Below are positions 7,103 through 45,979 of a stretch of DNA of 64,000 nucleotides, one piece after another. The position numbers and the translations under genes were made by a program. How positions within the stretch are numbered: position 1 is the stretch's first letter; every line of letters starts with the position of its first letter. The DNA is from Cupriavidus respiraculi (GTDB lineage Bacteria > Pseudomonadota > Gammaproteobacteria > Burkholderiales > Burkholderiaceae): NCBI RefSeq assembly GCF_914271545.1, contig NZ_CAJZAH010000001.1, forward strand, positions 434,001 to 498,000. The letters run 5' to 3'. The notes under the pieces were generated by a model. That model ran no database searches. It saw only the letters and a list, made by a program, of their open reading frames with translations, and had not been told where the DNA came from.

Positions 7103-7103
7103 A

Positions 7104-27950: not shown

Positions 27951-27987
27951 GCGTCCATATTGCGGACCGTTCCCTTATCTGTCAGTG

Positions 27988-28104
27988 GTCGTTGAGTCAC
28001 AATATTTTCCTGCTATATAAGCTCGCCGTTTCCATGAAAGACAAGGCTTTCCGAACATATTCTTGCGTCAAGGTCTTCTCATTCTGTAGTCGTTGAGACA
28101 CAAT
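27988..28104. repeat. Direct repeat GTCGTTGAG(T/A)CACAAT
   Basis: Two copies, 27988-28003 and 28089-28104, identical at 15 of 16 positions and 101 bp apart. The left copy overlaps a possible plus-strand promoter: TTGAGT (27992-27997), 16 bp, TATATA (28014-28019). Both lie in the gap between the XRE gene and the HAD gene and may be operators. Confidence 0.5.
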
Positions 28105-28280
28105 GCCGCCTTTGCAGCGGCCCTTAACCAAGGGCTTCGCGCGGCGTCACACTGCTGCGCACACCGATCGCCGCCCCGCGCGCATAGCACCGAGAGGGCC
28201 TGCCGCCGAACGGCGGATCTGGGGCGGCAGGCACGAGCGGCTACGCATTGCCCTGCGTCAGCGCAACGACACGATGCACG

Positions 28281-28811
28281 ATGATTTTGTTTCTGGACTA
28301 CGACGGTGTTCTGCACCCCGATGCGGCCTATCTGGTCAATGGCCGGCCTCAATTGCGTGCGGCAGGCTCGCTGTTCATGTGGGCGCCGATTCTCGTGGAA
28401 GCTCTCGCCCCCTATCCCCAGGTCCAGATTGTTCTCTCCACGTCGTGGGTGCGCGTGCTCAAGAGCTTCAGCCGAACCCAAGCCTATCTGCCCGCTGCGT
28501 TGCAGGCGCGCGTGATCGGCGCTACTTGGCATTCGGCCATGGCGCGACACCATGAGGGTGCGCACCGCATCGACGCGAGCTGGTTCAGCGAACTCACGCG
28601 GTATGCCCAGATCGCGCGATACGTTGCGCGATCTGGGCTGCGGGCCGAACATTGGCTGGCCATCGACGACGACAGCGAGGGCTGGCCCGTCGCGCTGCGC
28701 GACCACTTGGTCGAGACGGATGGGGCGCTGGGGCTTGCGAGCGCGTCGACACGGTGCGACCTGACCCAGCGACTGCAGGGGATGGCCGCAAGCACGCTCA
28801 GCGGGAAGTGA
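28281..28811 (+). CDS. HAD-domain protein (HAD_SAK-like)
   Basis: A 176-residue protein starting MILFLDYDGVLHPD, the DxDGxxH form of HAD motif I, with STSWV (motif II) and a late IDDDSEGW (motif IV Asp pair). It matches the small HAD domain that Pfam associates with 'Swiss Army Knife' RNA-repair proteins; standalone copies are common on mobile DNA. The activity may be phosphatase-like and is unproven. The ATG at 28281 has weak ribosome-site support. Five bases separate it from the next gene, so they form an operon. Confidence 0.8.
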   Translation: MILFLDYDGVLHPDAAYLVNGRPQLRAAGSLFMWAPILVEALAPYPQVQIVLSTSWVRVLKSFSRTQAYLPAALQARVIGATWHSAMARHHEGAHRIDASWFSELTRYAQIARYVARSGLRAEHWLAIDDDSEGWPVALRDHLVETDGALGLASASTRCDLTQRLQGMAASTLSGK

Positions 28812-28816
28812 ACACC

Positions 28817-29140
28817 ATGCTACGCGTGACCGTGGAACTCATTCCAGACGGACAGGAAGACTGCCGCCGAACACTTGGGCAGCTTGAGATCGAGAACATC
28901 GCGGGCGATTCGCTGGTGACCGGTGCCTACCGAATCGTCATGGACGAGTTCGATGCGCGGGGCCCGGGGCCGCGCACAACGTTCCGGACCATCGCATCGC
29001 TAGACAATGTGGAACGGGACCTCGTTCGCCCAATGCAATTGGTCGGCATGGCGCTTAGCGTCGTGGCACCGGTTAAGCGCACGATGCATCGTTCGGAGGA
29101 CGTGCCGCAGGGCACCGTGCTATCGCGCGAGTCGATCTAA
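28817..29140 (+). CDS. Hypothetical protein, 107 residues
   Basis: No domain was recognised. The protein starts MLRVTVELIPDGQE and reads as a beta-rich small fold (alternating hydrophobic residues in LEIENIAGDSLVTGAYRIVM). Similar small proteins are often found on phage- or island-type DNA. It is tightly linked to the HAD gene upstream (5 bp) and lies 29 bp before the next gene. A role is not assigned. Confidence 0.65.
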   Translation: MLRVTVELIPDGQEDCRRTLGQLEIENIAGDSLVTGAYRIVMDEFDARGPGPRTTFRTIASLDNVERDLVRPMQLVGMALSVVAPVKRTMHRSEDVPQGTVLSRESI

Positions 29141-29169
29141 GACGGTTTCGAGTTGCTGGGAGGGGTACC

Positions 29170-29805
29170 ATGGCTGAAAAATTTGTATTCCGAGACCTGG
29201 CGTTTCGCGCGGGTGCACACCTATGGTCCAACCCCAAACTGCGCGGCACCCCGGCGGAAATCCCTATCATCCTCGCGCGTCCGACCCTGTTTGATGTGGT
29301 CCAACTCGCCCAACGCTACCCGCTGGAAACGTTGTACCGGGCGAATCGCCGGCTCCGGGCGACCCGGGAGATTTCCGAGCGCCAGTTTCTTCGCACGCAG
29401 GAGATTCTGCGCAACATCCAACGCGCAAAGAATGATGGTGCGCTCAGTTGCGAAGATTGCGTGACGGCGGTGACCGTAGGTTACGAAGATCCTCCGAGGG
29501 AGGAACGAACGTCGACACCAGCGCAACGACACTGCGCATTGGCGAATTGGTTGCCGGGCGGACTGCAAACCATCAAATCTGAACCCGAAGAATACATCCG
29601 CCTTGACGACGTGCCGTCGGAGTTCACGGTGCCTCTCCGTCGATGGCTACGGTGGCAACTCGATTGCGCGCCGGGCCAGTCGTCGGGGTGGCTGATCGAT
29701 ACGCCTGACGGCCAGGGTCTCTCACACGGCGGATGGTGCGCTTTCCTGTCCTGGCTAACCGACGCCTTGCTTTGTCGATTAGATCAAATCGAAGTTGGTA
29801 TGTGA
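29170..29805 (+). CDS. Hypothetical protein, 211 residues
   Basis: Not recognised. The N-terminal half is Arg-rich with a helical stretch (YRANRRLRATREISE); the middle has ALSCEDC, a Cys pair that might bind metal; the C-terminal part is Trp-rich (RRWLRWQLDC, GGWCAFLSWLTDALL). GGGAGGGG lies just before the ATG. It belongs to the cargo block with the HAD gene and ends 47 bp before the next gene. Confidence 0.6.
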   Translation: MAEKFVFRDLAFRAGAHLWSNPKLRGTPAEIPIILARPTLFDVVQLAQRYPLETLYRANRRLRATREISERQFLRTQEILRNIQRAKNDGALSCEDCVTAVTVGYEDPPREERTSTPAQRHCALANWLPGGLQTIKSEPEEYIRLDDVPSEFTVPLRRWLRWQLDCAPGQSSGWLIDTPDGQGLSHGGWCAFLSWLTDALLCRLDQIEVGM

Positions 29806-29852
29806 CGAGCATCGCTCCGCCGCCGCTTCGACAACTTTCATGTAGCCGTCCG

Positions 29853-30584
29853 ATGCAAAACTCTCTCGTTGTTCTTTCCCTTCCGGGCGCGTGGGTCTCC
29901 CGTGCCGAATTTCTATCCGCGCTAAGTTCTCAAGCGCCAAAGTATCGTCTTGTTGACGGCATGCTCACGGATTTGCACACGGGGGAGAGCGTCCTCATCG
30001 AGTTTCGGAAAGGACGTCGTAGGAATACCGTGCTGGATTTTTGGTGTTTTGGTCTGCACTGGCACGACACCAGCGAGATGCGTGCAGTGAGGCAGCACGC
30101 GTCGTGCGTCATTATCAAGGGCGCGGGGGGCAGTTTGCATCGGATGATGCATCTGATGGCTGCGGCAAGCGCTGTGGTTCAAGCTGGGGCGCTGGGTGTG
30201 CTCGTCGAGCACGTCGGCATTGCCCATACGCCGCAAAAATGGCTGGACTTCGCGAGCGAGGGCGTCGATGGGATTCTTCGGGCGTTTGTCGTGACGGTCG
30301 ATGGGGCCGGCAGCGGTGCCTATAGTTGCGGTATGCATAATTTTGGGATGAAGGAAGTCAGTGCCCCGGCCGAAATCCCAAACTGTGCGAATGTTGTCGG
30401 AATCATTACCCGGCATTTGTTGGTGAAGGGCGCGAGCATTGCCCGCGGACAAACTATCGCCATCGGCGGGAAGGCAGACCGGTATCAATTTTGGGATGTG
30501 CGATCTGCGGTGGCTCCCGATGGGGCCGTATTCGACCACCAAATTGGCACGTGGAAGCTGCTGCGTGCCGAGGCCATCCATTAG
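29853..30584 (+). CDS. Hypothetical protein, 243 residues
   Basis: No certain family. The segment MMHLMAAASAVVQAGALGVLVEH followed by GIAHTPQKW loosely recalls DUF4261-type proteins. No signal peptide or membrane span is evident. The ATG at 29853 was preferred because the upstream open region overlaps the preceding gene. It is the last gene of the cargo block; the 258 bp after it to the minus-strand NmrA-like gene hold nothing recognisable. Confidence 0.6.
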   Translation: MQNSLVVLSLPGAWVSRAEFLSALSSQAPKYRLVDGMLTDLHTGESVLIEFRKGRRRNTVLDFWCFGLHWHDTSEMRAVRQHASCVIIKGAGGSLHRMMHLMAAASAVVQAGALGVLVEHVGIAHTPQKWLDFASEGVDGILRAFVVTVDGAGSGAYSCGMHNFGMKEVSAPAEIPNCANVVGIITRHLLVKGASIARGQTIAIGGKADRYQFWDVRSAVAPDGAVFDHQIGTWKLLRAEAIH

Positions 30585-30842
30585 AGTTCGAGGCAGCGCT
30601 GTGGACTGACGAGAACGGCCGTAGGAGGCGCCCTTCACCGACGTCAAATGCCGCCGTCCCGTACGACACTCTTGGTCGCTCATCATTCATGCGCCGAGAG
30701 TCCAGTTCGTGACTGAAAGGCGGTGCAACTCCCAACAGTCCCGGAAATCGATGTGTTTTACCGCTTTGTAAGCAGGACGGAAAATCAGCGTTCATGAACA
30801 CTGGGCCGGGCAGTTAAGCGCTTAGCGGTCTCCTCCCCGAAG

Positions 30843-31481
30843 TCATTGTCGGGTGCTGATTCCGGGAGCCCGGCGAACGAAATCGTGGTTCGCAATTTGA
30901 TCAAACATGAATTTGGCCAAGTCTTCACGGGCGACCGTCAGCGAATGCTTGGCGTGACCATACAAGCCGACGTTGAGTTGCTCCGCGGCGTGGCGATTCT
31001 TCAATACAGCCGCTCGAACCATTGTCCAATCAAGCGACGAGATACGGATCGCTCTTGCAAGTCCGATCATATCTTCGTAAGCACTTGGCATCGCGAACTT
31101 GATGATTGCGGCAGGCAGCCAGATCTTGAGGTCGAAATCATCGCCAGGATCAGCGGCTGTCCCGGTCGAGACCGCGATGAACCGCTTCACCTGCTCGCGT
31201 TCCATCGCTGAGATGATTGCCCGGGTCGCCGTAGTGATTGGCATACCTTTCGGGTGTGGCTGCCTGGCAGGGCCCAGCGCCGAAAGCACCGCATCTGATC
31301 CACGGATTGCGTCTCGCAACAAGTCAATATCGGTAAACTCGCCTCGGACAATCTGCACATTGGCGTTCTCAAACTTACTGCTGGAACGTGCAAAGACGGT
31401 GAGTTCGAAGCCGCGCTGCAGGCCCTCGTTTACAAGGGATGGCCCGGTTTTCCCGGTCGCTCCGAAAAGGGTAACTTTCAT
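30843..31481 (-). CDS. NAD(P)-binding NmrA-like oxidoreductase
   Basis: A 212-residue atypical short-chain dehydrogenase starting with the Rossmann motif VTLFGATGKTGPSLV (GxxGxxG). It lacks a clear YxxxK pair, as in NmrA/HSCARG-like and flavin-reductase-like proteins that bind NADP without classic SDR catalysis. GAGAGAG precedes its ATG. It is third in the DoxX-SDR-NmrA series, 98 bp after the SDR gene. Redox sensing or quinone/flavin reduction is possible. Confidence 0.85.
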   Translation of the reverse strand: MKVTLFGATGKTGPSLVNEGLQRGFELTVFARSSSKFENANVQIVRGEFTDIDLLRDAIRGSDAVLSALGPARQPHPKGMPITTATRAIISAMEREQVKRFIAVSTGTAADPGDDFDLKIWLPAAIIKFAMPSAYEDMIGLARAIRISSLDWTMVRAAVLKNRHAAEQLNVGLYGHAKHSLTVAREDLAKFMFDQIANHDFVRRAPGISTRQ

Positions 31482-31579
31482 CTCTCTCTCAATTGCCGCT
31501 TCACAGCCTCAGGTGCTAGTGGCCCGATCAAATTTGATAGCATTGCATACGTGTTCGAACCACGGACAGTTGCTCCGAG

Positions 31580-32323
31580 CTATCGAGCGCTGTCGATGAT
31601 CGAGCCGCCGTCGGGGGTAAGGCTGTATCCGGTCAAAAACTGGGCATCCTTACTCGCCAAGAACAGGACGACAGGCGCAATATCGTCTTCCGGCGAACCA
31701 TAGCGGCCGAGCGGGTTGGTCGGCGGAGGGACGTTGGTTTCCGGACCCCATGTCTCGGCCACCGGCAGTACATTATTCACCGTGATCTTGTCGGGGCCCC
31801 ACTCACGGGCAGCGGTGCGGGTGAGAGCGCGCACTGCCTCTTTGGCCATGTTGTACGGACCATATCCCACCAAGCCCAGGACACCAGCCATTGAGCCGAA
31901 GTTGATGACACGTCCTTCACCGCTCGCCTTGAGGTAGGGGTACGCCGCCTGCATCGTCCGCAGATACGCAATCGGTCCCATCTCGAAATTGCGCTGCAAC
32001 TGTTCCGTCGACAGATCGGTAATGGAAGAGAACGGCGCGGATGAGTCGAAGGCATTGTTGACGAGGATGTCGATCCCGCCATAGGTAGCGACGACTTTAT
32101 CCACCGCTGCCTTAATCTCGCCGGCATTGGCGATGTCGCAAAGCGCGCCGATTGCCGTTCCGCCATCAGCGCGAATGTCGGCAACGACCGCATCCACATT
32201 GGCCAGGGTGCGCGAAAGAACGGCCACTTTGGCGCCTTCTGCGGCAAACAGTTTTGCGGTGGCGCGGCCGATGCCGCGGCCGGCACCAGTGATGATCGCG
32301 ACTTTTCCGTTGAGTCGAGCCAT
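31580..32323 (-). CDS. Short-chain dehydrogenase/reductase
   Basis: A 247-residue classical SDR. The cofactor motif TGAGRGIG is at residues 12-19, the NNAF (NNAG-type) motif follows, and the catalytic YGPYNMAK (Tyr/Lys) and a serine in NFGSMAG are present. The late TGYSLTPDGG segment is typical. GGAGATCAACC precedes the ATG. It lies just after the DoxX gene and probably reduces a carbonyl compound with NAD(P)H. Confidence 0.92.
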   Translation of the reverse strand: MARLNGKVAIITGAGRGIGRATAKLFAAEGAKVAVLSRTLANVDAVVADIRADGGTAIGALCDIANAGEIKAAVDKVVATYGGIDILVNNAFDSSAPFSSITDLSTEQLQRNFEMGPIAYLRTMQAAYPYLKASGEGRVINFGSMAGVLGLVGYGPYNMAKEAVRALTRTAAREWGPDKITVNNVLPVAETWGPETNVPPPTNPLGRYGSPEDDIAPVVLFLASKDAQFLTGYSLTPDGGSIIDSAR

Positions 32324-32335
32324 GGTTGATCTCCG

Positions 32336-32740
32336 TTAGTTGAGGGATGTTTGGCGCTCCGCAAATGGAGCGTAGGGGGACGGGGTCTCGCGAGCGATGT
32401 TCTGTGTTGCGAACGACGAAACGAGCAGCACAACGCCGACTACCGCAGGCAGCGCACCTCTCAGTTCACGGACGCCAAGGTGAGCCAAACCAGACAGCAG
32501 CAGGTGATAAAACATGCCGGCGTAGGCCAGGTCGCTTAGCGGCGCGCTGACGCGCGCCAAAATGGCGGCCACGCCCAGGAGCTTTACCGCAGTGAGAAAC
32601 GGTACGAGATAGCCGGGATAGCCAAGGTCTGTAAGTGCCTGGACAACCCAAGCCCGTTTGGCTAAATACATCGTCGCGGAAGCGAGATAGAGCAAGGAGA
32701 GCAGCGCCGTGCTGATCCAGTACACGTAACTTTGAGTCAT
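32336..32740 (-). CDS. DoxX-family membrane protein
   Basis: A 134-residue protein with four transmembrane helices (ISTALLSLLYLASATMYL, FLTAVKLLGVAAILA, MFYHLLLSGLAHLG, ALPAVVGVVLLVSSFA), matching the DoxX/DUF417-like fold. DoxX proteins are often next to redox enzymes and are controlled by HxlR- or MarR-type regulators. It is the first gene of the minus-strand trio and diverges from the HxlR gene. Confidence 0.85.
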   Translation of the reverse strand: MTQSYVYWISTALLSLLYLASATMYLAKRAWVVQALTDLGYPGYLVPFLTAVKLLGVAAILARVSAPLSDLAYAGMFYHLLLSGLAHLGVRELRGALPAVVGVVLLVSSFATQNIARETPSPYAPFAERQTSLN

Positions 32741-32833
32741 GAGGTTTCCTAAAGCTGGGGGATTGCATCGACACGCAACAGAATGTCGTCTAAGCTAAAA
32801 GTCAGCAAGTAGGATGAAAAACTGGTGGTTAGT

Positions 32834-33214
32834 ATGGAAAAGAAGACTAATGGCGGCGATGAGATCAACATGCACGAGGAAATGCGCCGGGCATTTGCGC
32901 TACTGTCGGGAAAGTGGAAGCTGGAAATCATGTGGCTGCTCAACCAGCGGATCTATCGCTTTGGGGAACTGCGCAAGGCCATACCGGGGATCACTCAGCA
33001 CATGTTGACGGCACAGCTTCGTGAATTGGAGGCGGATGGCCTAATATCGCGCACGGTGTTTGCTGAGGTGCCGCCGCGCGTCGAGTACGAGATCACGGCA
33101 AAGGCGCGCGGCTTGGGGGCCACGATGGAGGCGCTGACAGCGTGGTGGAATGAGTATGGGAGAAGTGTGCCGGCGAAGCCGACGTCGCGCGGGCGCAGGG
33201 CAAAGGGGAGTTAG
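32834..33214 (+). CDS. HxlR-family transcriptional regulator
   Basis: A 126-residue winged-helix protein with the HxlR hallmark ALLSGKWKLEIMWLL, RFGELRKAIPGITQHML and TAQLRELEADGLISR. It lacks the conserved N-terminal cysteine used for redox or aldehyde sensing in HypR/YodB-type members. The tail is basic. It diverges from the DoxX-SDR-NmrA trio and is probably its repressor. A GTG three codons upstream is an alternative start. Confidence 0.9.
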   Translation: MEKKTNGGDEINMHEEMRRAFALLSGKWKLEIMWLLNQRIYRFGELRKAIPGITQHMLTAQLRELEADGLISRTVFAEVPPRVEYEITAKARGLGATMEALTAWWNEYGRSVPAKPTSRGRRAKGS

Positions 33215-33475
33215 CGCATCCGGCATGAGACTGCGTTTGCCCCGGCACCGGTTCGCATCACGCTCGCCAAGCGCAGGGGTGAGCATCGTCAACCCGCTAG
33301 TGAGGGAGAGTCTTAACGTGCCAGGAATTACACAAACTCCCGTCAACGGCGACCTGGAGTTCTCGTGCTTCGCATTGCGCGCCCCCATACGCCGGCACAA
33401 CATGCAGTCAGAGGGCTATACCGCTGCTTGCCGTTGACCATCCCCAGCGACGAGCGGCTCAGAGCCGCAGCGGGC

Positions 33476-34315
33476 TCAATGAAAGCCGTAATCGATCAGT
33501 TGCCTGCCCGCGACGAAGCGCCCATCGTTGGAGGGTGCGCCGAGAACCACAGCGAAAACACGTCGCATCGCTTTGCCCTTGGCCACCGAGCGCTTTGCCG
33601 TGACCGCCAGGCAATAGCCTGCCTTGGCAGTATGGCCCGTCTTCAGGCCATCGATAGTTGGATCGTCCAGCAGCCGATTCTTGTTGTGTCTGGTGAAGCT
33701 GCCATAGCTGAAATCCCGCTGAGCGGAGAAGGCCAGGTAGACCGGAAAATCCTCCGTCAAGCGCACCGACAGGTGGGCAATGTCTCGGGCAGTCGAGTAG
33801 TGGTTTGGCGTGGTAATGCCGGAAGGGGTGGCGAAGTGACTGGCACTCAGCCCTAGACGATTGGCGTAATCGTTCATTTTCCCTAGAAATGCGTCCTCCG
33901 ACCCGGCGACCGTACGGGCCAGGACCATTGCCGCATCGTTTGCTGAGACAACAATGAGACCCGTCAGTAGGTCCTGAATGCTGATGATCTGGCCGGCCTG
34001 GAGGCGCATGGTTGCCTCGTCGCCGCCCACATGAGCAAGGTCGCTGGCCTCCACACGCACCAACTGTTCCCACTTGATCGTGCTCGCCTTCAGGGCGTCA
34101 AGCACGACGTAGGCTGTCATCATTTTAGTTAGCGACGCGGGCTGTAGACGCTCGTCAGCATTCTTCTCGAGCATGACGCGATGCGAGCCGCTGTCGAGCA
34201 AAATGTAAGAGCGTGCTGCAATCTGTGGAGCCTGCGCGGCCGTTGCGGGGAGGGGGAGGGCGCCGAAAGCAAATGCCGAGGCGGCAAGAAAACGAGTGAA
34301 GCGCAAAAAAGGCAT
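33476..34315 (-). CDS. D-alanyl-D-alanine carboxypeptidase domain, truncated
   Basis: A 279-residue S11-family peptidase with signal peptide (FLAASAFAFGALPLPATA). The motifs SLTK (Ser about 61), SAN and KTG (LKTGHT) are intact, so it could be catalytically active. It stops at RQLIDYGFH, exactly where PBP5/DacA proteins (about 380 residues) continue into their C-terminal beta domain and membrane anchor; those are missing. It may be a domain-I-only enzyme or a truncated gene. A fragment of a related gene lies at 44142-44215. Confidence 0.85.
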   Translation of the reverse strand: MPFLRFTRFLAASAFAFGALPLPATAAQAPQIAARSYILLDSGSHRVMLEKNADERLQPASLTKMMTAYVVLDALKASTIKWEQLVRVEASDLAHVGGDEATMRLQAGQIISIQDLLTGLIVVSANDAAMVLARTVAGSEDAFLGKMNDYANRLGLSASHFATPSGITTPNHYSTARDIAHLSVRLTEDFPVYLAFSAQRDFSYGSFTRHNKNRLLDDPTIDGLKTGHTAKAGYCLAVTAKRSVAKGKAMRRVFAVVLGAPSNDGRFVAGRQLIDYGFH

Positions 34316-34378
34316 CAATGAACTGTCGTGCGTGGGCCGAGGCGTGAGGCCGCCTCGAGGAGAGCATTGTGTAGGTGA

Positions 34379-35818
34379 CTACGCCTGGGCGGAGGACGCT
34401 AGCTGGACGCACCGTTTTGCAAGGACATCAGTTGGGTCCACTAGTGCGACGCTCGCGCTTCCGACCGGGAAGCTGTCGGTCTGCGAGAAAACGAGCGGGA
34501 GTTCGGTGCAGCCGAGGATCTGGACTTGCGCACCCTTATTTTGGAGGTGCTCGATGGCTGCCCGAAGCGACGCTGCACAGTGCCCCTGCGTGTAGCCAGC
34601 CTTCACGCCTGTCGGGCCATAGATTGCCTCCATCACCATCGCCTGGAAGTCGGGCGGCGGTGTGATCAGTTCTAGCTGCCCTGCGGCAGCATCGTGATAT
34701 ACCCGACTCTCCACCGTGCCCGACGTCGCAAGAAGTCCAACTTTCGTTCCCTTTCCATACTTGCCGACGATGTGTCCGATGGTTTCCGTCAGCATGTTGA
34801 CGATCGGAATCGAGAGATGCGGCTGAATCCGCTCAACATACGCATGGGCGGTATTGCAGGGGATCGCAATGGCGTTTGCCCCCTCAGATTCCAGACGTTT
34901 GCAGGTTGCGTAGAGTGCAACTGTCGGGTCCGCTTCGTGGCGCAGCAGATTTGCCGTGCGATCCGGGATTTGCGGATTCTGCTCCACGACCATCTTAATG
35001 TGATCCTGGTCCTTGGACGCAACGGTGTTGCTCACGATCTTTCCCATAAAGTCCACCGTTGCAGCCGGGCCCACGCCGCCGACGATGCCGAGCTTGAACG
35101 CCGGATTGAATTGTCCGTCCGCCAGCGACGTCGCATAGTCAGCGTAGATCTGGTTCACGTCGACAATGGGGATACCACGACGTTGCAGGGCGGTGGCGAC
35201 CAGTGACAGTTCGGTCATGCCTGGGACAATCAAGGAGGCCCCGGCGTCAAGCAACTCCAAGCACGATTGATGGACGTGCTCCAAGGAGAGCCCCTCGGTA
35301 TTGCCGGCTTTGATGCCGTCGGCGCCGTACACCGCCTCCATCAGCACGGCCTGTGTCGTGGTGGTCGGATAGACTATCTCATAGCGTTGTCTGAAGTGTG
35401 TATCGAACAATGCGGCAACGCGAACGTAGTCTGATGCCAGGACACCAATACGCCCACCCTCCGGCAATGCGTCGCGCAACGCCTGGCCCAGTGCATCCAT
35501 CATGTTGACAATGCGAATGGACAACTCCGACTGGAGTTCATCACGGAAGGTGTGAGATGCGAAACAGGGCATAAGCACCGCATCAACCTTCCTGCTCTCG
35601 AATGACTGGCAGGTCTTGAACACGTAGAGCTTACGGCTCGTCATGTTTGCGTCGCGGGTGAGCGGCTCCGCGACATCTCGAAAGGGATGCTGCTCGAACA
35701 GGAAGTGATATCGGCCCTGGTCGGCCATGACTGCACGGCTTTTCACAAGCTTGAGGAAAAGATCAGCCCCGGCAAGCGTCCCGAGGCCGCCGATCATTCC
35801 AAAGGTAAGGTCTTGCAT
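34379..35818 (-). CDS. Double-domain aspartate/glutamate racemase
   Basis: A 479-residue protein made of two Asp/Glu racemase domains in tandem, each starting with a GMIGGLG / GIVGGVG motif (residues 8 and 245). The C-terminal copy has both catalytic cysteines (Cys321 in IPCNTAH, Cys437 in LGCTEL). The N-terminal copy keeps Cys85 (MPCFASH) but has Gly200 in place of the second (VPGMTEL), so it should not catalyse two-base racemisation. Single-domain enzymes are about 240 residues. It lies downstream of the dicarboxylate transporter and aspartase genes, which suggests interconversion of D- and L-aspartate in an aspartate-use pathway. Confidence 0.9.
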   Translation of the reverse strand: MQDLTFGMIGGLGTLAGADLFLKLVKSRAVMADQGRYHFLFEQHPFRDVAEPLTRDANMTSRKLYVFKTCQSFESRKVDAVLMPCFASHTFRDELQSELSIRIVNMMDALGQALRDALPEGGRIGVLASDYVRVAALFDTHFRQRYEIVYPTTTTQAVLMEAVYGADGIKAGNTEGLSLEHVHQSCLELLDAGASLIVPGMTELSLVATALQRRGIPIVDVNQIYADYATSLADGQFNPAFKLGIVGGVGPAATVDFMGKIVSNTVASKDQDHIKMVVEQNPQIPDRTANLLRHEADPTVALYATCKRLESEGANAIAIPCNTAHAYVERIQPHLSIPIVNMLTETIGHIVGKYGKGTKVGLLATSGTVESRVYHDAAAGQLELITPPPDFQAMVMEAIYGPTGVKAGYTQGHCAASLRAAIEHLQNKGAQVQILGCTELPLVFSQTDSFPVGSASVALVDPTDVLAKRCVQLASSAQA

Positions 35819-35870
35819 TGCGTCTAGGTGATCCGGTTTCGAGGCTGATTTCGTGCAGAGAGATTCAAGC

Positions 35871-37184
35871 TTAGTTCATGGATGCGTGGCGGCTGACCTG
35901 TGCGGCGATCGCCCCTGCCGGCGCGACATCTGCGTCATCACCGACCGTTCCAGGTGACGTCTCGTTCTCAAGTTTTGCCACGACAGCGGTGGCGACACTG
36001 TTGCCAACGACGTTGGTCGCGGTCCGACCCATGTCGAAGAACTGGTCGATGCCAATGATGAGCAGGAGGCCAGCCTCCGGCAGATGAAACATGGGCAGCG
36101 TGGCAGCGACCACCACCAGCGATGCCCGTGCAACGCCAGCCATGCCCTTGCTCGTGACCATGAGCACCAGGAGGATGGTCAGTTGCTGGGTCAAGGACAG
36201 TTCGATGTTGTACGCCTGGGCAATGAACATGACGGCGAAAGCCTGGTACATCATCGACCCATCGAGGTTGAACGAGTATCCCAGCGGCAGGACGAAGCTC
36301 GACACGCGCTTGGAGACGCCAAAGCGTTCCAGGGCCGTGATGGTCTTCGGGTAGGCCGATTCGCTGCTGGCGGTCGAGAATGCGAGCAGAATGGGTTCAC
36401 GAATCAGCTTCCCGAGTTGCCAGGTCCTACGGCCGAGGAACAGGAAACCCACACCGAACAGCATCGCCCAGAGGATCGCGAGCCCGAGGTAGAACTCGCC
36501 GATCAGCTTGCCGTAGCTGGCCAGAACACCGACGCCTTCCACCGTGATGGAAGCCGCCATCGCGGCGAAGACGCCGACCGGCGCGAAGCGCATCACATAG
36601 TCCGTAATGCGAAACATGACCTTCGTCAGTTCTTCAATTGCGTTGACGAGGGTGGAATTGCCGCTGCCCTTTACAAACGCCAACGCCGCGCCGAAGAAGA
36701 GTGAGAACACGAGAATCTGCAGAATCTCGTTGTTGGCCATGGCTTCGAAGATACTCTTCGGGAACACATGTGTGATAAAGCCCTTCAGGCTGAAGTCTCC
36801 AACCCTGAGGTTGGTCGCTGCCGCGCTGGCTTCGGGGATGGTGAGATTCAAATGGGCACCTGGCTGGAACAGGTTGACCAGCAGTATGCCAAGCGCGAGG
36901 GAGATCGCCGAGGCGGAAACGAACCAGACCATGGCCTTCAGGCCAATTCGGCCGACGGCGCCACCGTCAGCCATGCTGGCCAGCCCACCAACCAAGGTGG
37001 CGAACACCAGGGGGGCAATGATCATCTTGATCATGCGCAGGAAAATGTCGGTCACGATGCCGAAATAGCCGGCGATTTCCTTTGCGGCCTGGGCATCCTT
37101 GGCCAGGCTGTGGCACAGCCAGCCAACGGCTATGCCGGCCACCATTGCAACCACGATATGTGTGGTCAGTCGCTTCGTGTTCAT
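35871..37184 (-). CDS. Dicarboxylate/amino acid:cation symporter (DctA/GltP type)
   Basis: A 437-residue SLC1/DAACS transporter with eight transmembrane segments and re-entrant loops. Typical stretches are MIKMIIAPLVFATLVGG, AFSTASSESAYPKT, LPLGYSFNLDGSMMY and the NVVGNSVATAV binding region. The serine-rich loop (FSTASSE) and NLDG motif fit uptake of C4-dicarboxylates, aspartate or glutamate. The ATG at 37184 has GGAGG five bases ahead. Between aspartase and racemase genes, so aspartate is the likely substrate. Confidence 0.92.
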   Translation of the reverse strand: MNTKRLTTHIVVAMVAGIAVGWLCHSLAKDAQAAKEIAGYFGIVTDIFLRMIKMIIAPLVFATLVGGLASMADGGAVGRIGLKAMVWFVSASAISLALGILLVNLFQPGAHLNLTIPEASAAATNLRVGDFSLKGFITHVFPKSIFEAMANNEILQILVFSLFFGAALAFVKGSGNSTLVNAIEELTKVMFRITDYVMRFAPVGVFAAMAASITVEGVGVLASYGKLIGEFYLGLAILWAMLFGVGFLFLGRRTWQLGKLIREPILLAFSTASSESAYPKTITALERFGVSKRVSSFVLPLGYSFNLDGSMMYQAFAVMFIAQAYNIELSLTQQLTILLVLMVTSKGMAGVARASLVVVAATLPMFHLPEAGLLLIIGIDQFFDMGRTATNVVGNSVATAVVAKLENETSPGTVGDDADVAPAGAIAAQVSRHASMN

Positions 37185-37236
37185 TGTGTCCTCCACCTAC
37201 AGATGGTCTGACCGGGAACTCGTCGATCCCCGGTGC

Positions 37237-38672
37237 TTATTTATTGAATGCGATCGGCGCGCGGGGCGACGTCAAGACTTCCGGCCGGAGAATCTCGTTC
37301 AGTGCTTCCTGCGACAGCAGGCCTCGCTCCAACACGATGTCGGCAACCTTGCGGCCCGTTTCTAGCGCCTCTCGTGCGACCTCGGTCGAATTTGCGTAAC
37401 CGATGTAGGGGTTCAGCGCGGTCACAAGCACGATGGATCTGTCCAGCATCTCTCGCATATGGTCACGGTTCGCCGTAATGCCGCGTACGCACTTTTCCTC
37501 GAGCGTAGCGCAAGCCTGCGTCAAATGGCTGATACTGCGGAACAGCGAATAGGCAATGACCGGCTCAAAGGCGTTGAGCTGCAGTTGCCCGGCTTCAGCG
37601 GCCATCGTGATGGTCATATCATTGCCGATAACTTCAAAGGCCACCTGATTCACAACTTCCGGAATCACGGGATTTACCTTGCCAGGCATGATGCTGGAAC
37701 CTGCCTGCACCGGCGGCAAGTTAATCTCGCCCAGCCCAGAGCGTGGACCACTCGAGAGAAGGCGCAGGTCGTTGCAAACTTTGGAGAGCTTGACGGCTAT
37801 CCGCTTGAGCACCCCCGAGAGCTGAACGAATGCTCCGCAGTCTTGTGTCGCCTCAATGAGGTAGGGCGCGGTATGCAGCGGGAGTCCGCTTACGGTGCAC
37901 AGGTGCTTGCGCACGAGCACTGCGTAGTCCGGATGGGCGTTGATGCCGGTGCCGATCGCTGTCGCGCCGAGATTCATTTCGCTGATGAGTGGCAGTGCTT
38001 CGCCCAATCGCTGGCGGTCTTCATTCAGCATGACGGCGTACGTACCAAACTCCTGTCCCAGCGTCATGGGCACGGCGTCTTGGAGTTGCGTGCGACCCAC
38101 CTTCAGCATGTCGCGGAACTCTGCGGACTTGCGTTCGAAGGACGACTCAAGCAGCGCCATCTGGTCCAGCAATCGCAGCACGCTCCGACAGGTGGCAATC
38201 TTAAGCGCGGTTGGGTACACGTCGTTGGTCGATTGACTCATGTTGACGTGTTCATTCGGATGCAGCGCGTCGTATTCACCGCGCTGGCGTCCGAGAATTT
38301 CCAGCGCCTTGTTGCACACGACCTCATTGGCATTCATGTTGTGGTCGACGTGCCCGCGCCGCCCTGAATCAGATCGACGGCAAACTGGTCGGCGTGCTGG
38401 CCCGCGCGAATGGCCTTGCAGGCCTCGACAATGGCGTTGGCGCGCTGCTCATCAAGCAGTTCCAACTCGCGGTTTGCAAGCGCCGCGGCCTCCTTGATAT
38501 CGACCAGGGCCACAATCAGCTCTGGGTACTTCGAGATTGGGTCGCCAGTGATCGGGAAGTTCTCCAGTGCCCTCAGCGTATGAATGCCGTAGTACGCGTC
38601 TGCCGGCACCTCGCGGTAGCCAAGCAAGTCATGCTCGCGCCGCGTTCCCTTGAAATCTTGTTGAATAGCCAT
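37237..38672 (-). pseudogene. aspA: Aspartate ammonia-lyase, split by a frameshift
   Basis: Two consecutive frames together encode a complete aspartase (about 478 residues): part 1 from the ATG at 38672 (SD GAGGA) ends at 38334 with GGAGTSTTT, part 2 begins MNANEVVCNKALEIL at 38337. The intact family sequence is GGAGTSTNMNANEV, so the frame breaks at ACCACAACATG, consistent with one lost A or an added CA. The stop of part 1 overlaps the ATG of part 2 (ATGA). Part 2 carries the signature GSSIMPGKVNP. The enzyme converts L-aspartate to fumarate and ammonia. It may be a pseudogene, a sequencing error, or a coupled split enzyme. First gene of the aspartase-transporter-racemase operon. Confidence 0.85.
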
Positions 38673-38752
38673 CGCATTCCTCATCAGTGCGCCTTGTTTG
38701 CCAACCGGATTCTAGGAGCGCAATGGAATCCACTTTATGAGGATGTAAATTG

Positions 38753-38777
38753 AAACTATTCCATACCAGAATAGTTT
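38753..38777. promoter_or_regulatory. Inverted repeat AAACTATTC-N7-GAATAGTTT
   Basis: Perfect 9-bp arms with a 7-bp centre, containing ATTC-N7-GAAT, i.e. the T-N11-A form of LysR-type sites. It lies between the divergent aspA and LysR genes and is probably bound by that LysR protein. Confidence 0.65.
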
Positions 38778-38927
38778 TGCTTGGAGCGCCACATAGCGCA
38801 CTTTATGCTGTACTTTGATGATCAGGATTCGCTTATTTCTTGCGTTTTCGGTCCATACATGGGGTTTACGTGGGCGTTCGGCTGCCCACTTGGGTACGTG
38901 TGACCCTCAGCGGCAAAGAGGTGCCAA

Positions 38928-39863
38928 ATGCAACTGAAGTGGATCGAAGATCTTTTGGCGATCGAACAGACGCACAGCTTCTCCCGGGCCTCAGAGCTCC
39001 GATTTGTTACGCAATCAGCACTTTCTCGACGCGTAAAGTCGCTGGAAGATTGGGTTGGCGTCGAATTGGTAGACCGAGGCACCTACCCGGTCGAATTGAC
39101 GCCTGCTGGCCGCAGGTTCTGCGAGCAAAGCAAAGAATCCGTCGGTGCCATTACGGAACTGCGTTCGGAACTGCGCCAGGAGGCAAAGATGCCAGGCCGT
39201 TCCATCCAGATCGCCGCCGGCCATACGCTCTCGTTGACGTTCTTGCCAAGGTGGTTGAAGCAGTTCCACCAACAAACCGGTGATTTCAATGCGCGAGTCG
39301 TCGCAGCGAACGTTCACGATGCCGTCGTCGCATTGGCTGAAGGCAGTTGCGACTTGATGATCGGCTATCACCATCCACTCGTGCCGATCCTGCTCGACCG
39401 CGACAAGTTCGCCGGCATCACGTTAGGCCATGAGGATTTCATCCCTGTATCTGCGCCAGACGACCGCGGCAAACCGATCTTTTCGCTGCCGGGCACGACC
39501 GACGCTCCGCTCCCGTACCTCGCGTACACGGCCACGACATTCATGGGACGCGTTGTCGATATGATCTTGAACAGCGCCGACGCACCGTACCATCTGCGTA
39601 GCTGCTACGAGGCGGACATGGCGATGTTGCTGATGAAGATGGTGGTCGAGCGATACGGCGTTGCGTGGTTACCGGTAAGCGCGGTTGCGGAGGAGATCGC
39701 AGCGGGACGCCTCGTCCAGGCGGGCCACGACACCTGGACTGCTCAATTGGAAATCAGGTGCTACCGGGCGATTGCCAACGCCAACCCTACGCTGCAAGAC
39801 CTGTGGCAGTCATTGGACAATACTTCATCGTGTGAACACGTCGAAGATGATGCTCCAGTCTGA
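38928..39863 (+). CDS. LysR-family transcriptional regulator of the aspartate operon
   Basis: A 311-residue LysR protein (helix-turn-helix IEQTHSFSRASELRFV, TQSALSRRVKSLEDWVG) with an effector domain resembling the HypT/YjiE subgroup (LTFLPRWLKQFHQQTG, CDLMIGYHHP). The ATG at 38928 starts the conserved helix directly. It diverges from the aspA-transporter-racemase operon, with a LysR-type inverted repeat between, so it is the probable activator. Confidence 0.9.
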   Translation: MQLKWIEDLLAIEQTHSFSRASELRFVTQSALSRRVKSLEDWVGVELVDRGTYPVELTPAGRRFCEQSKESVGAITELRSELRQEAKMPGRSIQIAAGHTLSLTFLPRWLKQFHQQTGDFNARVVAANVHDAVVALAEGSCDLMIGYHHPLVPILLDRDKFAGITLGHEDFIPVSAPDDRGKPIFSLPGTTDAPLPYLAYTATTFMGRVVDMILNSADAPYHLRSCYEADMAMLLMKMVVERYGVAWLPVSAVAEEIAAGRLVQAGHDTWTAQLEIRCYRAIANANPTLQDLWQSLDNTSSCEHVEDDAPV

Positions 39864-39979
39864 ACAAGCGGCGAAGGGAAGGGGAGTCGCTGGGACCTGT
39901 TGGCAGAATGCGGGGAAGCAATGACCGCGGAATGGTTGCAAGGGTCATCCGTCGACACAGAACTAGAAAGGCCTACAGA

Positions 39980-42900
39980 ATGCGCGCGTTCGAGATCGAG
40001 ATCTCAAAGCCAACGAATGCTGACAGCTTCGAAAACATGTGCACGGATGTCTACGGTGTCGTGTTCGACGATCCGACTCCAAAGAGGAACGGCAGATCAG
40101 GGCAGAAGCAGGGCGGTGTAGACATTTTCGTTACATCAAGAGCCGGTCGAATTGGCATCCAGTGCAAGCGGTATGTCGATGGCGGGGTGACCACCAAGAC
40201 AATTGATGATGAGGTTGCCGCGGCCGACGCGGCGGGTTGGAAGATTGTCCGTCTCATAATTGCCACGACAGCTGCAAGCGACACGGCGCTCGTCAAGCAC
40301 GCACAGGAAGTCAGCGACCTTCGGCAGGCCAATGGCCAATTCTTGGTCGAAGTGGAATCGTGGACCGAGATATGCAACCACATCCAACGATACGACGCAT
40401 TGCATCCGAAATACTCCCCAAACAGCGCGGGCGGTGCCATTGCGGTGCTACGTGAGCAGGGAGAAAGGACTGGGGCGCAGATCGCTGCCATGCCTGCGAC
40501 GATGGAAGCAACATTCAAGGCGGCACTATTGCAGATGTTGCCTACAGGTCGGACAGATTCACCGAATGGGCTTGTGACGAGGCAGCTTGACAAGGTGAAC
40601 GACCTGCTGCGCGGCCTGAAATTTCAGGCTGCGCAGGAGTTGCTTGCCACTCTCGAAACCGAGATCGCGAGCTTCGACAGACATCAGAAGGCGCGCTGGA
40701 CTCTTCAGAATGGCATTGCACACTGGCAACAGAATCGTGAGGAGGTCGCTGCTGAGTGGTTTCTACGTGCCTATGACCTGTTTTGGGATGACGAGCGCAT
40801 CGCCGCTAACAAAATCCGAGCGCATATCATCCAGGGAGACCTCAAGCTTGCCAACGCTGAAGGGGCACGCCTGCTAGGCCTATTCCCGCTTTCGCTCCAT
40901 GTTTGGCTAGCGGCTACCAATGCTCGAATCTGCGAGAACGAGGACTTGACGGAAGCCGAATTGCCGGCGCGCTTCAGAGAAGAAGCAGATGCGCTGCAAA
41001 TGATGGCCTACGCCTTTTATCGGCAACAGAGCGACTTGGCGGTAACCTACGCACGGCGAGCTTTACGCGCAAAGGATGCAGGCCTTTTCACCCGCAAAGG
41101 GGCCGCAGGCATCATCGTTAGCGTCGCAGGAAAGGACGGGATTTCCGCGGACTTCGACGCCTACGCCGAAGATTTGCGTGAGGGTCTCGATGAGGTAATC
41201 GCCGCGTTCGAGCCTGCGGCAACAGAACTATGGCGGATCGAAAATAGCCAGCACAGGGCCGAAGCTGCCTCGCACGTGGCGCTTGCCCACATGCTAACCG
41301 GCAAGCCTGGCGTGGCGCTCGCCATATGCGAGCGAATCGAAACGGAAATTCCTGAGTATGCCGATAACGTGGCCGCCCTACACATCGGATCCTTGCTCTT
41401 CCTCCGCCGGCACGAGGATCTTGTTAAATTTTCCATAGCCCACCTCAATGCGCTGGACGAAGACGGATTGCTCCTTGCGGCCGAAACGGCCGCAAACCGA
41501 GGCGAGTCCGAGGCATTTGCTCGCATCACTCACGCATTGCGCGAGCATGCGCCGGACGAGAAACCGGTTGTCAAGCTGCTTGAAATGGTGTGCGCGTGCA
41601 ACTCCGGCCAATCCGAAAAGGTGGTCAAGGAAGTCAGTGAGACGCCCGCTGATGGCCTTGATCTGATTACACTCAGCGCCTTTGCGGGGCTGATGCTCAA
41701 TGCCGGCCGTGACAGCGAAGCGCTCCGGTTTGTCGAGGTCATAAAGAAGCGAGTCTCCACCCATTCGAGTTCGCGCGAGCGTCTGATCGTCGCGGATATT
41801 TTGATTCGCGCCGATCAGTTCTCCGACGCCGTCGGCCTCTTGGAGTCGGTGGACCCCAGCGGCCGCAGCCTACCAATTCAGACGCGACGACTGCGTGCCC
41901 TATTGTTTGGTGGGTACCGGCGAAAGTCAAAAGACCTCCTGGAAAAAGTGCCACCCGAATGGCTTTCAGATGACGCCTTCCGCCGCCTAGCGATGGGCGT
42001 CGCACAAGAAGCCAATGACTGGAGCCAGCTCGAACTGCTTGCGAGACTGCATCGCGAGGCCCATCCAGAGCGGGCGGAAGCATGGGTCTTTTGGTACCAA
42101 GTTGTTCTTCATACCAGACCACCCGCACAAATCCGAAACGCCTTCAGCGAGGCGCCCGAGCGTCTTACGGGGACCCTGAAGCAGATCGCGCACTTGGCGG
42201 CGGCAGAGTTGCAGTATGGCAAGCCAGAGGTCGGGTACGCGCGGCTTTATCGCATGTTCCGCTCGAACATGGACGACGTCAGTGCCGCCTCCTCCTATCT
42301 AATGGGAGTTTTGATCGGTCACCGAGCCAGACACGGTAGAACACACTTTCCGGAGGTGAGGCCTGGCTCCATGGTGACGCTTGAGGGCGCGGACAGGAGC
42401 ATCGTAAAAATCGTGATCGATCCTGCAGGCATGACGGATCTGCCGAAATCTGCGAGATTCCTTGCTGCGGACAGCCCGCTGGCGAAAACGATGCTAGGAC
42501 TGGCATGCGGCGACACCGTTGACATCGAGGGAACGTTCGATGTTCGCAATTTCACGATTCGTGAGATCAGTGATGCTCATCAAGGACTGGGCGAGTACGC
42601 GCACGAACTCTTGTCGAAATCGCTAGAACCCGCGCCTGGTCTGCAGCTCTTCAGCCTGACCGAGAAAGAGGATGGGAACCTGGATGTCTCGCCCATCCAT
42701 GACCGACTCAAGGCGCAAACGCAACGTAGCAAATCGGTAATGGAGCAATACGCCGAGAGCAAGCTTCCGCTTGGCTTGTGTGCGCAAATGCTCGGCGCCG
42801 ACGGCATGCAAATGGTCTTCAGTTGGGACCAGCGCAACCCTCCGCTCGCAAGTGGTGTCACCACAGCGCCAGAGCTTGAGGCCGCAAGTGCATTGTTGCT

Positions 42901-43978
42901 CGACCAATCGTTCCCCGTTGTGATGGACGCGCTCACGCTGGCTGAACTTGTCCGCTTTGGACAGGGTGATCTTCTCTCAGTGTTGCCACGGGTGTATGTT
43001 TGCCGGGGGACCTACGATCGATTCAAACAAGCGGAAGTCGAGGCGTTGGATTCTCGCGCAGAGGGACATGCGGCCGATATAGATGGGCAGTTCGCATTCT
43101 TGCCTATCACGGAAGAGGCTCGCAAGTGGAAGGCAAGCCAATATACCGAAGCATTGAGGCTAATGGACGAACACTGCGAAGTTTGCCCGGTGTATGGGCC
43201 GGAGCAAATGCCTCACGAACTCATCCTTCTAAAGGATCTTCTCGATACAGATACCTATGACGCGCTCGCGTTGTGCCTCGAAAAGGGGGCAGCCTTGTTC
43301 TCGGTGGATGAACGCCTTAGGAACTGGGTCTATGGAGTGTTTGGTATCAAGGGTGTGTTCCCCTATCTCGTGGCGATGAAGGGCTTGCAGGACGGCAAGA
43401 TCTCACGTGGTGATCACGCAGAGTTCGCCCTCAACTCGGCGCTGCACAATCGCACCGTTTTCGCCCTTCATGCAGATGACGTCTTTTGGGGACTCCAGCA
43501 GCCGCAGATGGCGGCGCGGACGCTTGAATTTGTTGCCACCCACCTCGCAACCGCGCTCAATCGCCGGTACGCGATCGGCCTAGCGCGCGACCTGATTCAA
43601 GGAATGCCAAACGTGTCCATGCAGTACGGCGCAGTTGTAGAGTTCGTGAAATTTATCGCCAATGGCTTGTTTCGCAGAAAGGATAACGTCACAGGAATGC
43701 GCGAGGGCTTTGCCCGATGGTTGCGGCAAGTAGCGGACATGTTGTTTGCTTATACCTCGCCGTATCCCGCTACACGAGAGATTCCCAGGGAAGACAAGGC
43801 TGAATTTCTCAACGTGCTGGAGCATGGCTTAGAAACGGGAATTGCATTGGCCGGGGAGGGCGGCGCGATAGAGCCGCCCGCGATCGGAGCGCTCTATTGC
43901 AGAACCGGCTTCGTCGTTCATCAGCCAAATGCGAAAGCGCTCACAAACGTCACGGTGTCACCGGCAACGGCAAGCTAA
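39980..43978 (+). CDS. Large multi-domain nuclease protein: PD-(D/E)XK - helical repeats - GreA/B-C-like - PIN-like
   Basis: A 1332-residue protein. Residues 1-150 form a restriction-endonuclease-like (Mrr/PD-(D/E)XK) domain: Glu18 in the first helix, GVDIF (Asp48) and IGIQCKRY (Gln61, Lys63). Residues about 190-790 are helical, TPR-like repeats. Residues about 795-880 contain MVTLEG and DSPLAKTMLGLACGDTVDIEG, which reads as a GreA/GreB C-terminal domain. Residues about 975-1115 look like a PIN nuclease: VVMDALTLAEL (Asp983) and YDALALCLEKG with LFSVDERLRN (Asp1110). The ATG at 39980 follows GAAAGG. I recall a TPR-GreAB-C-PIN arrangement predicted in surveys of bacterial conflict systems; experimental function is not known to me. 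It stands alone in an accessory segment. Confidence 0.85.
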   Translation: MRAFEIEISKPTNADSFENMCTDVYGVVFDDPTPKRNGRSGQKQGGVDIFVTSRAGRIGIQCKRYVDGGVTTKTIDDEVAAADAAGWKIVRLIIATTAASDTALVKHAQEVSDLRQANGQFLVEVESWTEICNHIQRYDALHPKYSPNSAGGAIAVLREQGERTGAQIAAMPATMEATFKAALLQMLPTGRTDSPNGLVTRQLDKVNDLLRGLKFQAAQELLATLETEIASFDRHQKARWTLQNGIAHWQQNREEVAAEWFLRAYDLFWDDERIAANKIRAHIIQGDLKLANAEGARLLGLFPLSLHVWLAATNARICENEDLTEAELPARFREEADALQMMAYAFYRQQSDLAVTYARRALRAKDAGLFTRKGAAGIIVSVAGKDGISADFDAYAEDLREGLDEVIAAFEPAATELWRIENSQHRAEAASHVALAHMLTGKPGVALAICERIETEIPEYADNVAALHIGSLLFLRRHEDLVKFSIAHLNALDEDGLLLAAETAANRGESEAFARITHALREHAPDEKPVVKLLEMVCACNSGQSEKVVKEVSETPADGLDLITLSAFAGLMLNAGRDSEALRFVEVIKKRVSTHSSSRERLIVADILIRADQFSDAVGLLESVDPSGRSLPIQTRRLRALLFGGYRRKSKDLLEKVPPEWLSDDAFRRLAMGVAQEANDWSQLELLARLHREAHPERAEAWVFWYQVVLHTRPPAQIRNAFSEAPERLTGTLKQIAHLAAAELQYGKPEVGYARLYRMFRSNMDDVSAASSYLMGVLIGHRARHGRTHFPEVRPGSMVTLEGADRSIVKIVIDPAGMTDLPKSARFLAADSPLAKTMLGLACGDTVDIEGTFDVRNFTIREISDAHQGLGEYAHELLSKSLEPAPGLQLFSLTEKEDGNLDVSPIHDRLKAQTQRSKSVMEQYAESKLPLGLCAQMLGADGMQMVFSWDQRNPPLASGVTTAPELEAASALLLDQSFPVVMDALTLAELVRFGQGDLLSVLPRVYVCRGTYDRFKQAEVEALDSRAEGHAADIDGQFAFLPITEEARKWKASQYTEALRLMDEHCEVCPVYGPEQMPHELILLKDLLDTDTYDALALCLEKGAALFSVDERLRNWVYGVFGIKGVFPYLVAMKGLQDGKISRGDHAEFALNSALHNRTVFALHADDVFWGLQQPQMAARTLEFVATHLATALNRRYAIGLARDLIQGMPNVSMQYGAVVEFVKFIANGLFRRKDNVTGMREGFARWLRQVADMLFAYTSPYPATREIPREDKAEFLNVLEHGLETGIALAGEGGAIEPPAIGALYCRTGFVVHQPNAKALTNVTVSPATAS

Positions 43979-44141
43979 TAGGACGGCGACGGGTCAACGC
44001 GTAGGGCAGGGCAGGCCAGCTTTCGTCGCATCACCTATACGTTGCGCATGAATGACGCACGTGCATTTGGCAATCCGCTGATATCGTGGCAGCAATGCGT
44101 GGCTAGTAGTCAATCATAAGCGTTCTGCTCGCGTCCACCGA
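43979..44141. other. Non-coding stretch after the large nuclease gene
   Basis: No gene or clear terminator seen in these 160 bp. Confidence 0.3.
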
Positions 44142-44215
44142 CGCTTTGCCGTGACCGCCAGGCAATTGGCTGCCTTGGCAGTGCGGCCCATCTTCAGGCT
44201 ATCGGCGGCAGTTGG
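44142..44215 (-). pseudogene. Fragment of a D-alanyl-D-alanine carboxypeptidase gene
   Basis: About 74 bp align at roughly 85% with 33591-33661. The translated piece DSLKMGRTAKAANCL matches DGLKTGHTAKAGYCL of the gene at 33476-34315, but the catalytic KTG motif has become KMG and nothing else of the gene remains. It marks a rearrangement or a second decayed copy. Confidence 0.7.
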
Positions 44216-44288
44216 AATCTGCCCCCGTCTGCGAGATAGATGAAGCCCTGCTTCGCGATGGCATAATGGAAGCAGGCCTAGCCTACGA

Positions 44289-44315
44289 GGCCACCCCAAT
44301 GTCTCATTGGTGGCC
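44289..44315. other. Hairpin upstream of terminator
   Basis: GGCCACCCCAATG pairs with CATTGGTGGCC (2-nt bulge, TCT loop). Together with the terminator four bases downstream it forms a two-hairpin 3' end like that of a small RNA or an old gene end. Confidence 0.45.
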
Positions 44316-44318
44316 GCC

Positions 44319-44342
44319 AAAAGCCCGCGCAAGCGGGCTTTT
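44319..44342. terminator. Bidirectional intrinsic terminator
   Basis: AAAAGCCCGC-GCAA-GCGGGCTTTT, perfect 10-bp arms. It ends in a T-run on both strands. It could end transcription from the large nuclease gene (340 bp upstream) or belong to a gene now lost. Confidence 0.8.
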
Positions 44343-44587
44343 GTTCGTCTCTATGGCTCAGAATTGCGCTGAAGGCGAACCTGAGCACTCGAGCGTGGCG
44401 CGATGTGTGAACGAGAAATAGCAGTTAGAGGATTTTCAGATTCAGCGCTAGTTGGCGGCGGCACAACACTCCACAGGCTCGTATAGCCGGTAACCCAGCC
44501 AGTGACAACGATGCCGAGACTATTCGCGTATCCATATGCCGAATGGTGGTGCCCTGGGCGGGTGCAGCGGTGCCGATATGCCGTAAG
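44343..44587. other. Intergenic region with no recognised gene
   Basis: About 245 bp between the terminator and the decayed recombinase; nothing recognised. Confidence 0.3.
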
Positions 44588-45688
44588 CTAAGCACTCATC
44601 CTTGGGATTGCGTAGACATTTTGCCGAGAATCTACGTTCATTCGACGATACGTGACCCTCAACCAATGGGGAGTTGCCTTCCTAAAACGGGCAGCTTCAT
44701 CCGGATTTTTGTGTTCGATCCTGTCGGCAACGAGGTTCACGGCGTTTTTTACTATTCCATAGATTGAGTCCCGGCCTAAAGGAACAGCTTGCTCGTCTCC
44801 GTGGAGCCGGGATACCAAGGGCGTTGCTGACGGAGGAGGAGGAATGTGGATACCACGTGCCGCCAAGTATCTGTAAATGGCATACTTGGCCGAAGGATTC
44901 AGGACAATCTTCCTTGCCTGCTGCCCGCTCGCGTTCCTTAAAGAAAGCGACCACGTTTCATCTCCGGAGCTTGGTGACTTGTAGCAAAACAAATCGGACA
45001 GGCGGATACAGGCCAACTCCTCCCCGCGGATGCCAGTGTTTCCCATGAACCGAATTACGAAGAGCATCCGCTCGGCCTCGTCATGCGCTGGATGTCCGAC
45101 TGGAAACTTCTCGCACTCTAACTCGAGCTCTCGGAGTAATCGAACAAACGACAAAAGGGGCAGGGATCTCGAGGGCTTTGTGGATCCCATGGCACTTTTC
45201 TTCCGACGGATTCGTCGCTCGCGGAAGAGGTTATATTGGATGTGCCGGAAATCGACCAGAAACGAAAATAAACTTTCCAAGACGCGAAATGCGAATGAGC
45301 AGCTCGCGTCCGACAAAGCTCCCTCGAACGGCCGCCAATCTCCGGCAGTACGACGCCGATTGCGCATTCCGCACCAGGAGTCTGGAGGATCCCGGAGAAA
45401 TGCATCATAGAAGTCTAGGTCTGACGGGGTGATTTCGGCCAACAGCTTTCGATCGATGAAGAGCGCCCAGCAGTAAAACCTATGGACTTCCTTCTCATAG
45501 GCACGCTCCGTAGCATGGGTAGCAAATCCAGACAGCCACTGCAGTACAGTCCCCAGCTCCTGATACGCGCCATCATGTAAAGCGCGATCGACGGGATCGC
45601 AAGGATGCCCTGGTTGGCATAGAGTTCGGAGATCCCTCAGGGAAGAAGGAAACGGTGAGATGCTTAGCCCATCTTCTTGAGCGGCCAT
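44588..45688 (-). pseudogene. Decayed tyrosine recombinase
   Basis: A 366-codon frame from the ATG at 45688 (AGGAG before it). It is a diverged relative of the recombinase at 24616-25842: both have WLSGFA / WLARYA, a TERAYEKEVHRFYCW / TLTTYRREVERLILW helix and the DWRPFEGALS / DWRPFAGPLS motif. NTGIRGEEL (Arg) and HWLRVTYRRM (His341/Arg344) remain, but the protein stops 22 residues later without the second His and the nucleophile Tyr, so it should be inactive. No KfrA-like partner is adjacent. Lower GC than its neighbours suggests foreign origin. Confidence 0.75.
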
Positions 45689-45979
45689 GTAAACTCCTGC
45701 GGCACGTATGCGTTGGACATCATCGCACGGGTCGAAGGCATTCGGCCGATAACAAAACTGTGGGCAGTAAGGGATGCAAATGAAAAAGTATGTTTGTTTT
45801 GGCGCGTATGAGCCGAAGAGCATTCGGACACGTATTTACGTCGCGATCAAACATAGTTTTGCGTCTTTCGACTGCATCCAAACGATATTGCGTTTCCAGG
45901 GGCACCCTGTACTTAACATAAGATTCATTATCGGCAGCAGTGATGTTGGCCATTTTTTCTAATGTCGTACTTGAGATCA
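45689..45979. other. AT-rich region between recombinase remnant and IS
   Basis: About 290 bp, AT-richer than its surroundings, no convincing gene. Confidence 0.35.

Follow-up and report, generated by a model that had tools for sequence, protein, structure and literature searches.

The window analysed here, a 64,000-nucleotide stretch forming part of contig 1 in the 5.59 Mb assembly of Cupriavidus respiraculi, carries a gene whose product is a member of the TPR-GreAB-C-PIN family, a family already published as a prediction. The protein (Table 1) joins an N-terminal Mrr-like nuclease domain, a putative TPR-type helical repeat region, a domain resembling the C-terminal domain of GreA and GreB (GreA/B-C) and a PIN domain, and is likely a DNA-cutter at one end and likely an RNA-cutter near the other. 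We consider it probable (roughly 0.6) that this is a standalone defence protein, encoded on a moving island, that acts through both nucleases with docking on RNA polymerase; we infer the docking, both cutting activities and the protection. New here are the identical proteins on a shared island in five Cupriavidus genomes, the defence genes that adjoin some relatives and the link through the PIN domain to GapS6b; the arrangement and its restriction endonuclease (REase)-type N-terminal effector are already known from a 2021 eLife article (PMC8195603).

The PIN domain matched Pfam family PF20698 ('PIN domain associated with the TPR-GreAB-C-PIN system') with an E-value of 1.2e-16 and 61.6 bits (cut-off 27.8). 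At the N-terminus, the AlphaFold2 (AF2) model and fold comparison revealed a PD-(D/E)XK alpha-beta core with D and QxK, the same fold and D...QxK core as in the Mrr-like domains of AF1548, the Avs4 N-terminus, MspJI/AspBHI and FokI (all of which we take to be PD-(D/E)XK domains); unlike these, the window domain is fused to TPR-GreAB-C-PIN. The GreA/B-C stretch gave both profile and fold matches to Gfh1, GreB and GreA, with which it has the C-terminal globular domain in common, whereas no counterpart of their N-terminal coiled coil was seen. Pfam matches of the window protein to GreA_GreB, Mrr_cat, Mrr_cat_2 and TPR_16 were below the cut-off, and TPR models exceeded it in some homologues. Modelling establishes the domain order together with three of the folds. 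An earlier, sequence-only reading of this DNA had described a multi-domain protein in one frame, which we confirmed; its domain calls and catalytic residues were borne out by PF20698, the AF2 and fold matches and residue conservation, and structure prediction, one of its proposed checks, did recover the PD-(D/E)XK fold.

We aligned 14 full-length members of the family, 12 of which carry the N-terminal nuclease. Within that domain D48 and Q61 were invariant, K63 was present in 11 and E18 in 10 of the 12, while in the PIN domain D983, D1110 and R1114 were invariant in all 14 and the position of D1094 was occupied by D in 11, E in one and A in two. The GreA/B-C stretch aligned in 14/14 members with G840 invariant throughout, which argues for a selected role of this domain. 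The ratio of nonsynonymous to synonymous substitution rates (dN/dS) between the window gene and its 75% homologue L007 was 0.105, a rough value because dS was ~1.5. As judged from these comparisons, catalytic residues are conserved in both nuclease domains and the gene is under purifying selection.

PMC8195603 describes the TPR + GreA/B-C + PIN core as a conflict system of mostly standalone genes with 13 alternative, exchangeable N-terminal effectors, REase among them. In its proposed mechanism GreA/B-C engages RNA polymerase and the PIN domain cuts the transcript as it is extruded, with the N-terminal effector bringing about cell death should transcript cutting fail. We found no essential difference between that system, which is also the one named by PF20698, and the window protein, for which we document in addition the mobility of the island and the defence-gene neighbours. 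The earlier reading of a conflict system is supported. Its suggestion that the N-terminal nuclease may be specific to this form did not hold, since REase is among the published effectors and the nuclease is present in 12 of the 14 members. The N-terminus does vary among our members: L003 and L080 have, in place of the nuclease, a different N-terminus of ~330 residues, which in L003 has no Pfam match. These N-termini (L003:8981-9980; L080:9014-10010) show a DDL...QMK pattern and could represent a further PD-(D/E)XK type.

The same reading had called the arrangement predicted but not studied. This stands for the core, of which we found no experimental test in the open literature searched, where the names of the family yielded no paper, but another family with the same PIN domain, GapS6b, is named anti-phage in NCBIfam (NF047936, 'antiphage_GapS6b'). 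A GapS6b-family protein in genome G201 (L068; 1212.5 bits) carries the PF20698 PIN domain (79.4 bits), over which the TPR-GreAB-C-PIN family profile aligns weakly; the start of its sequence is different, the family profile detected no GreA/B-C in it, and we saw no REase there. The window protein itself is not a GapS6b protein (14.9 bits against the NF047936 cut-off of 850). Among the papers listed by searches for GAPS6 none dealt with that system, so the anti-phage standing of GapS6b is taken from its NCBIfam name. The common PIN domain links the 2021 prediction of RNA polymerase engagement (PMC8195603) to a system that is anti-phage by family name, the neighbours of some relatives likewise point to defence, and the window gene, with an unbroken frame and conserved catalytic residues, offers a ready test case. 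In two other PIN systems catalytic changes abolish defence, according to the DefensePredictor study (PMC13092281).

The distribution of relatives is patchy and mobile. Eleven of 60 Cupriavidus genomes had any match: five, including the window's own, encode an identical full-length protein, and the others comprised one at 75% identity, an interrupted copy (G046), one at 28% with a different N-terminus (G015) and three partial matches. A whole-protein search of the window's bacterial family gave matches in 30 of 398 genomes, 17 of them to the N-terminal nuclease only. Whole-genome profile searches gave matches in 195/369 genomes of a first set and 250/385 of a second; among the matches listed, nearly all were in GreA/B-C positions only, mostly short frames of ~160-230 residues (one of which, L145, has a GreA-like start), and the full-length family matches were those in G000 and G976 of the first set and, in the second, in G150, which had been chosen as centre. 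Members can have been missed in these three genome searches, because at most two to three candidates were scored per genome. Conserved occurrence in core genomes, which the sequence-only reading had named as counting against a defence role, was not what we found: relatives are patchily and horizontally spread.

The block that holds the gene was identical (100% rounded; ~99.9% or more) to DNA in genomes G041, G044, G007, G046 and G018, as two pieces separated by extra DNA in G018 and with the interrupted gene copy in G046. Window positions 1-20000 were likewise 100% (rounded) in these five genomes (in two contig pieces in G041), while ~1,900 aligned bases that include the 3' part of rpoC showed 91-93% identity in the same genomes and G028. 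The shared DNA ends at ~45873, beyond which the window differs from the three records compared, and the gene ends ~1.9 kb from the end of the DNA common among species. This near-identity beside rpoC divergence, together with the stop at ~45873, places the gene close to an end of an island that was transferred recently and on this evidence extends at least to the left edge of the window. The gene had been described as lying alone beside a core LysR gene, which is misleading since the LysR gene is inside the same shared block.

We examined genomic neighbours in an initial pass (eight neighbours in four loci, chosen by eye) and then by script, taking the nearest open frame of at least 150 residues to the left and to the right of 14 full-length loci (27 frames, one side of L067 being missing); two of the 27 had been scanned in the by-eye pass and 25 were scanned afterwards, and two further frames were added later. 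The 14 loci exclude the window copy and L077, which differs from L078 at six residues, and L079 stands for L003 (identical protein). Clear PADLOC matches adjoined 4 of the 14 loci, a count in which 'clear' was judged afterwards and which has no background rate behind it. The neighbours were MkoB, with MkoA one frame further (Mokosh), at L007; PDC-S06, with a SpbK-like TIR protein further on, at L066; PDC-S15 at L079, along with a SIR2 protein whose match is to the first quarter of Dsr1; and, at L080, the 2TM effector and the cyclase of a CBASS system. A truncated relative (L082) adjoins GajA and GajB (Gabija). We left UvrD/RecD-type matches in L002, L067 and L071 out of the count; among them, the L067 helicase scored 310 bits over nearly the whole of a GajB model.

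Under the favoured reading, the GreA/B-C domain would dock on RNA polymerase transcribing foreign DNA, at the beta' coiled coil as Gre factors do, and the helical repeats would sense an invader-linked signal and hold both nucleases inactive until then. Once freed, the PIN domain would cut RNA, either the transcript or, in keeping with its VapC/HARP-like fold, tRNA, and DNA would be cut by the Mrr-like domain, such that the invader is stopped or the cell killed. Several observations weigh against this reading. A clear PADLOC match was missing at 10/14 loci (again a count without a background rate), and ten window proteins from 24.6-45.8 kb, other than LysR, aspartase and the transporter, had no defence-system match, except a weak one to a Csa3-like regulator (E 3.3e-4); the island genes recognised by eye appear catabolic. 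The third acidic residue of the PIN domain is replaced by A in 2/14 members, both of them members with the alternative N-terminus (L003 and L080). Finally, RNA polymerase binding is not assured, because Pfam GreA_GreB matched below cut-off in the window protein and in 1 of 6 homologues scanned, and the modelled part corresponds to the C-terminal domain of Gre factors only, without their N-terminal coiled coil.

The main rival, possible but less probable, is that the protein works by abortive infection, with both nucleases hitting cellular tRNA and DNA and GreA/B-C being only structural or protein-binding, although the alignment of this domain in every member and its invariant glycine argue for a selected role. 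Also improbable is a transcription-coupled immune nuclease that would ride RNA polymerase through GreA/B-C and, on a foreign template, cut both nascent RNA (PIN) and the template DNA (Mrr-like); if true, this would be restriction guided by transcription and not by sequence or modification. The closeness of the gene to the end of the species-shared DNA would fit a protein that guards its own mobile island against plasmids or competing elements and not the host against phage, but some relatives reside in other islands and on plasmids, adjoining phage-defence genes, and we consider this unlikely. A housekeeping factor in transcription-coupled repair or RNA processing is highly improbable: GreA/B-C and PIN domains do occur in core factors too, but near-full-length relatives were found in just 8/60 Cupriavidus genomes (one interrupted, one with the other N-terminus), transfer was recent and horizontal with patchy spread, and REase and PIN domains are combined in a single chain.

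Table 1. Positions of the gene, its domains and related features (window positions unless a locus is named).
Feature	Position	Strand	Details
TPR-GreAB-C-PIN family protein with N-terminal PD-(D/E)XK nuclease	39980..43978	+	1332 aa
Mrr-like PD-(D/E)XK nuclease domain	39995..40414	+	residues 6-145; AF2 model, fold matches, conservation
E18	40031-40033		nuclease domain
D48	40121-40123		nuclease domain
Q61-C62-K63	40160-40168		nuclease domain
Helical (TPR-type) repeat region	40547..42259	+	~residues 190-760, approximate boundaries; TPR_16 sub-threshold here, TPR models above cut-off in some homologues
GreA/GreB C-terminal-like domain	42344..42574	+	residues 789-865
PIN domain PF20698	42920..43327	+	residues 981-1116
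D983	42926-42928		PIN domain
D1094	43259-43261		PIN domain
D1110	43307-43309		PIN domain
Shared block with the gene	38532..45874	+	7.3 kb; 100% identity (rounded) to DNA of five other Cupriavidus genomes
GapS6b-family protein (locus L068)	7673-10975		

An alternative, longer start lies at 39908; homologues start at the ATG at 39980. The window protein is identical to one from Cupriavidus campinensis MJ1. It is not itself a PADLOC-listed protein, its sole match there being DrmA (E 0.059), and among 50,697 phage records a single one matched, covering the N-terminal 11% only. The N-terminal profile had no sequence match among PDB chains at E 0.1, and the C-terminal half had no match among viral structures at E ≤0.001 (best E 0.022, an unnamed protein); the absence of a family from the fold list does not exclude that family.

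Much of window 1-45873 is ~99.8-100% common to other Cupriavidus genomes whose rpoC region is 7-9% different, and the stop of identity at ~45873, followed by different DNA in each of three records compared, resembles an element end. By that end lies a 411-residue minus-strand frame (44588-45823) that by eye resembles a tyrosine recombinase, although Pfam gave no match to it at a threshold as lax as E 1. The DNA of G007 is different across window 20000-34371, and a 3.5 kb segment (35021-38531; by eye a DctA-like transporter and part of an aspartase) is absent from the other island copies compared. The aspartase-like gene (37237-38684) consists of two overlapping frames of 116 and 366 residues, as after a frameshift. 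In G046 (C1:1657754-1661747; L013/L018/L019) the gene is split into three matches near residues 1010 and 1290 and holds one in-frame TAG, by decay or assembly error. At the L068 locus, frame 4674-7184 resembles a conjugative relaxase by eye. In other genomes of the window's bacterial family, three proteins of ~1050 residues (L148:5355-8522, no NCBIfam match; L149:5445-8579; L150:7905-11081) have the N-terminal nuclease pattern GRxGQxQxGVD...QCK in common with the window protein and differ in the remainder.
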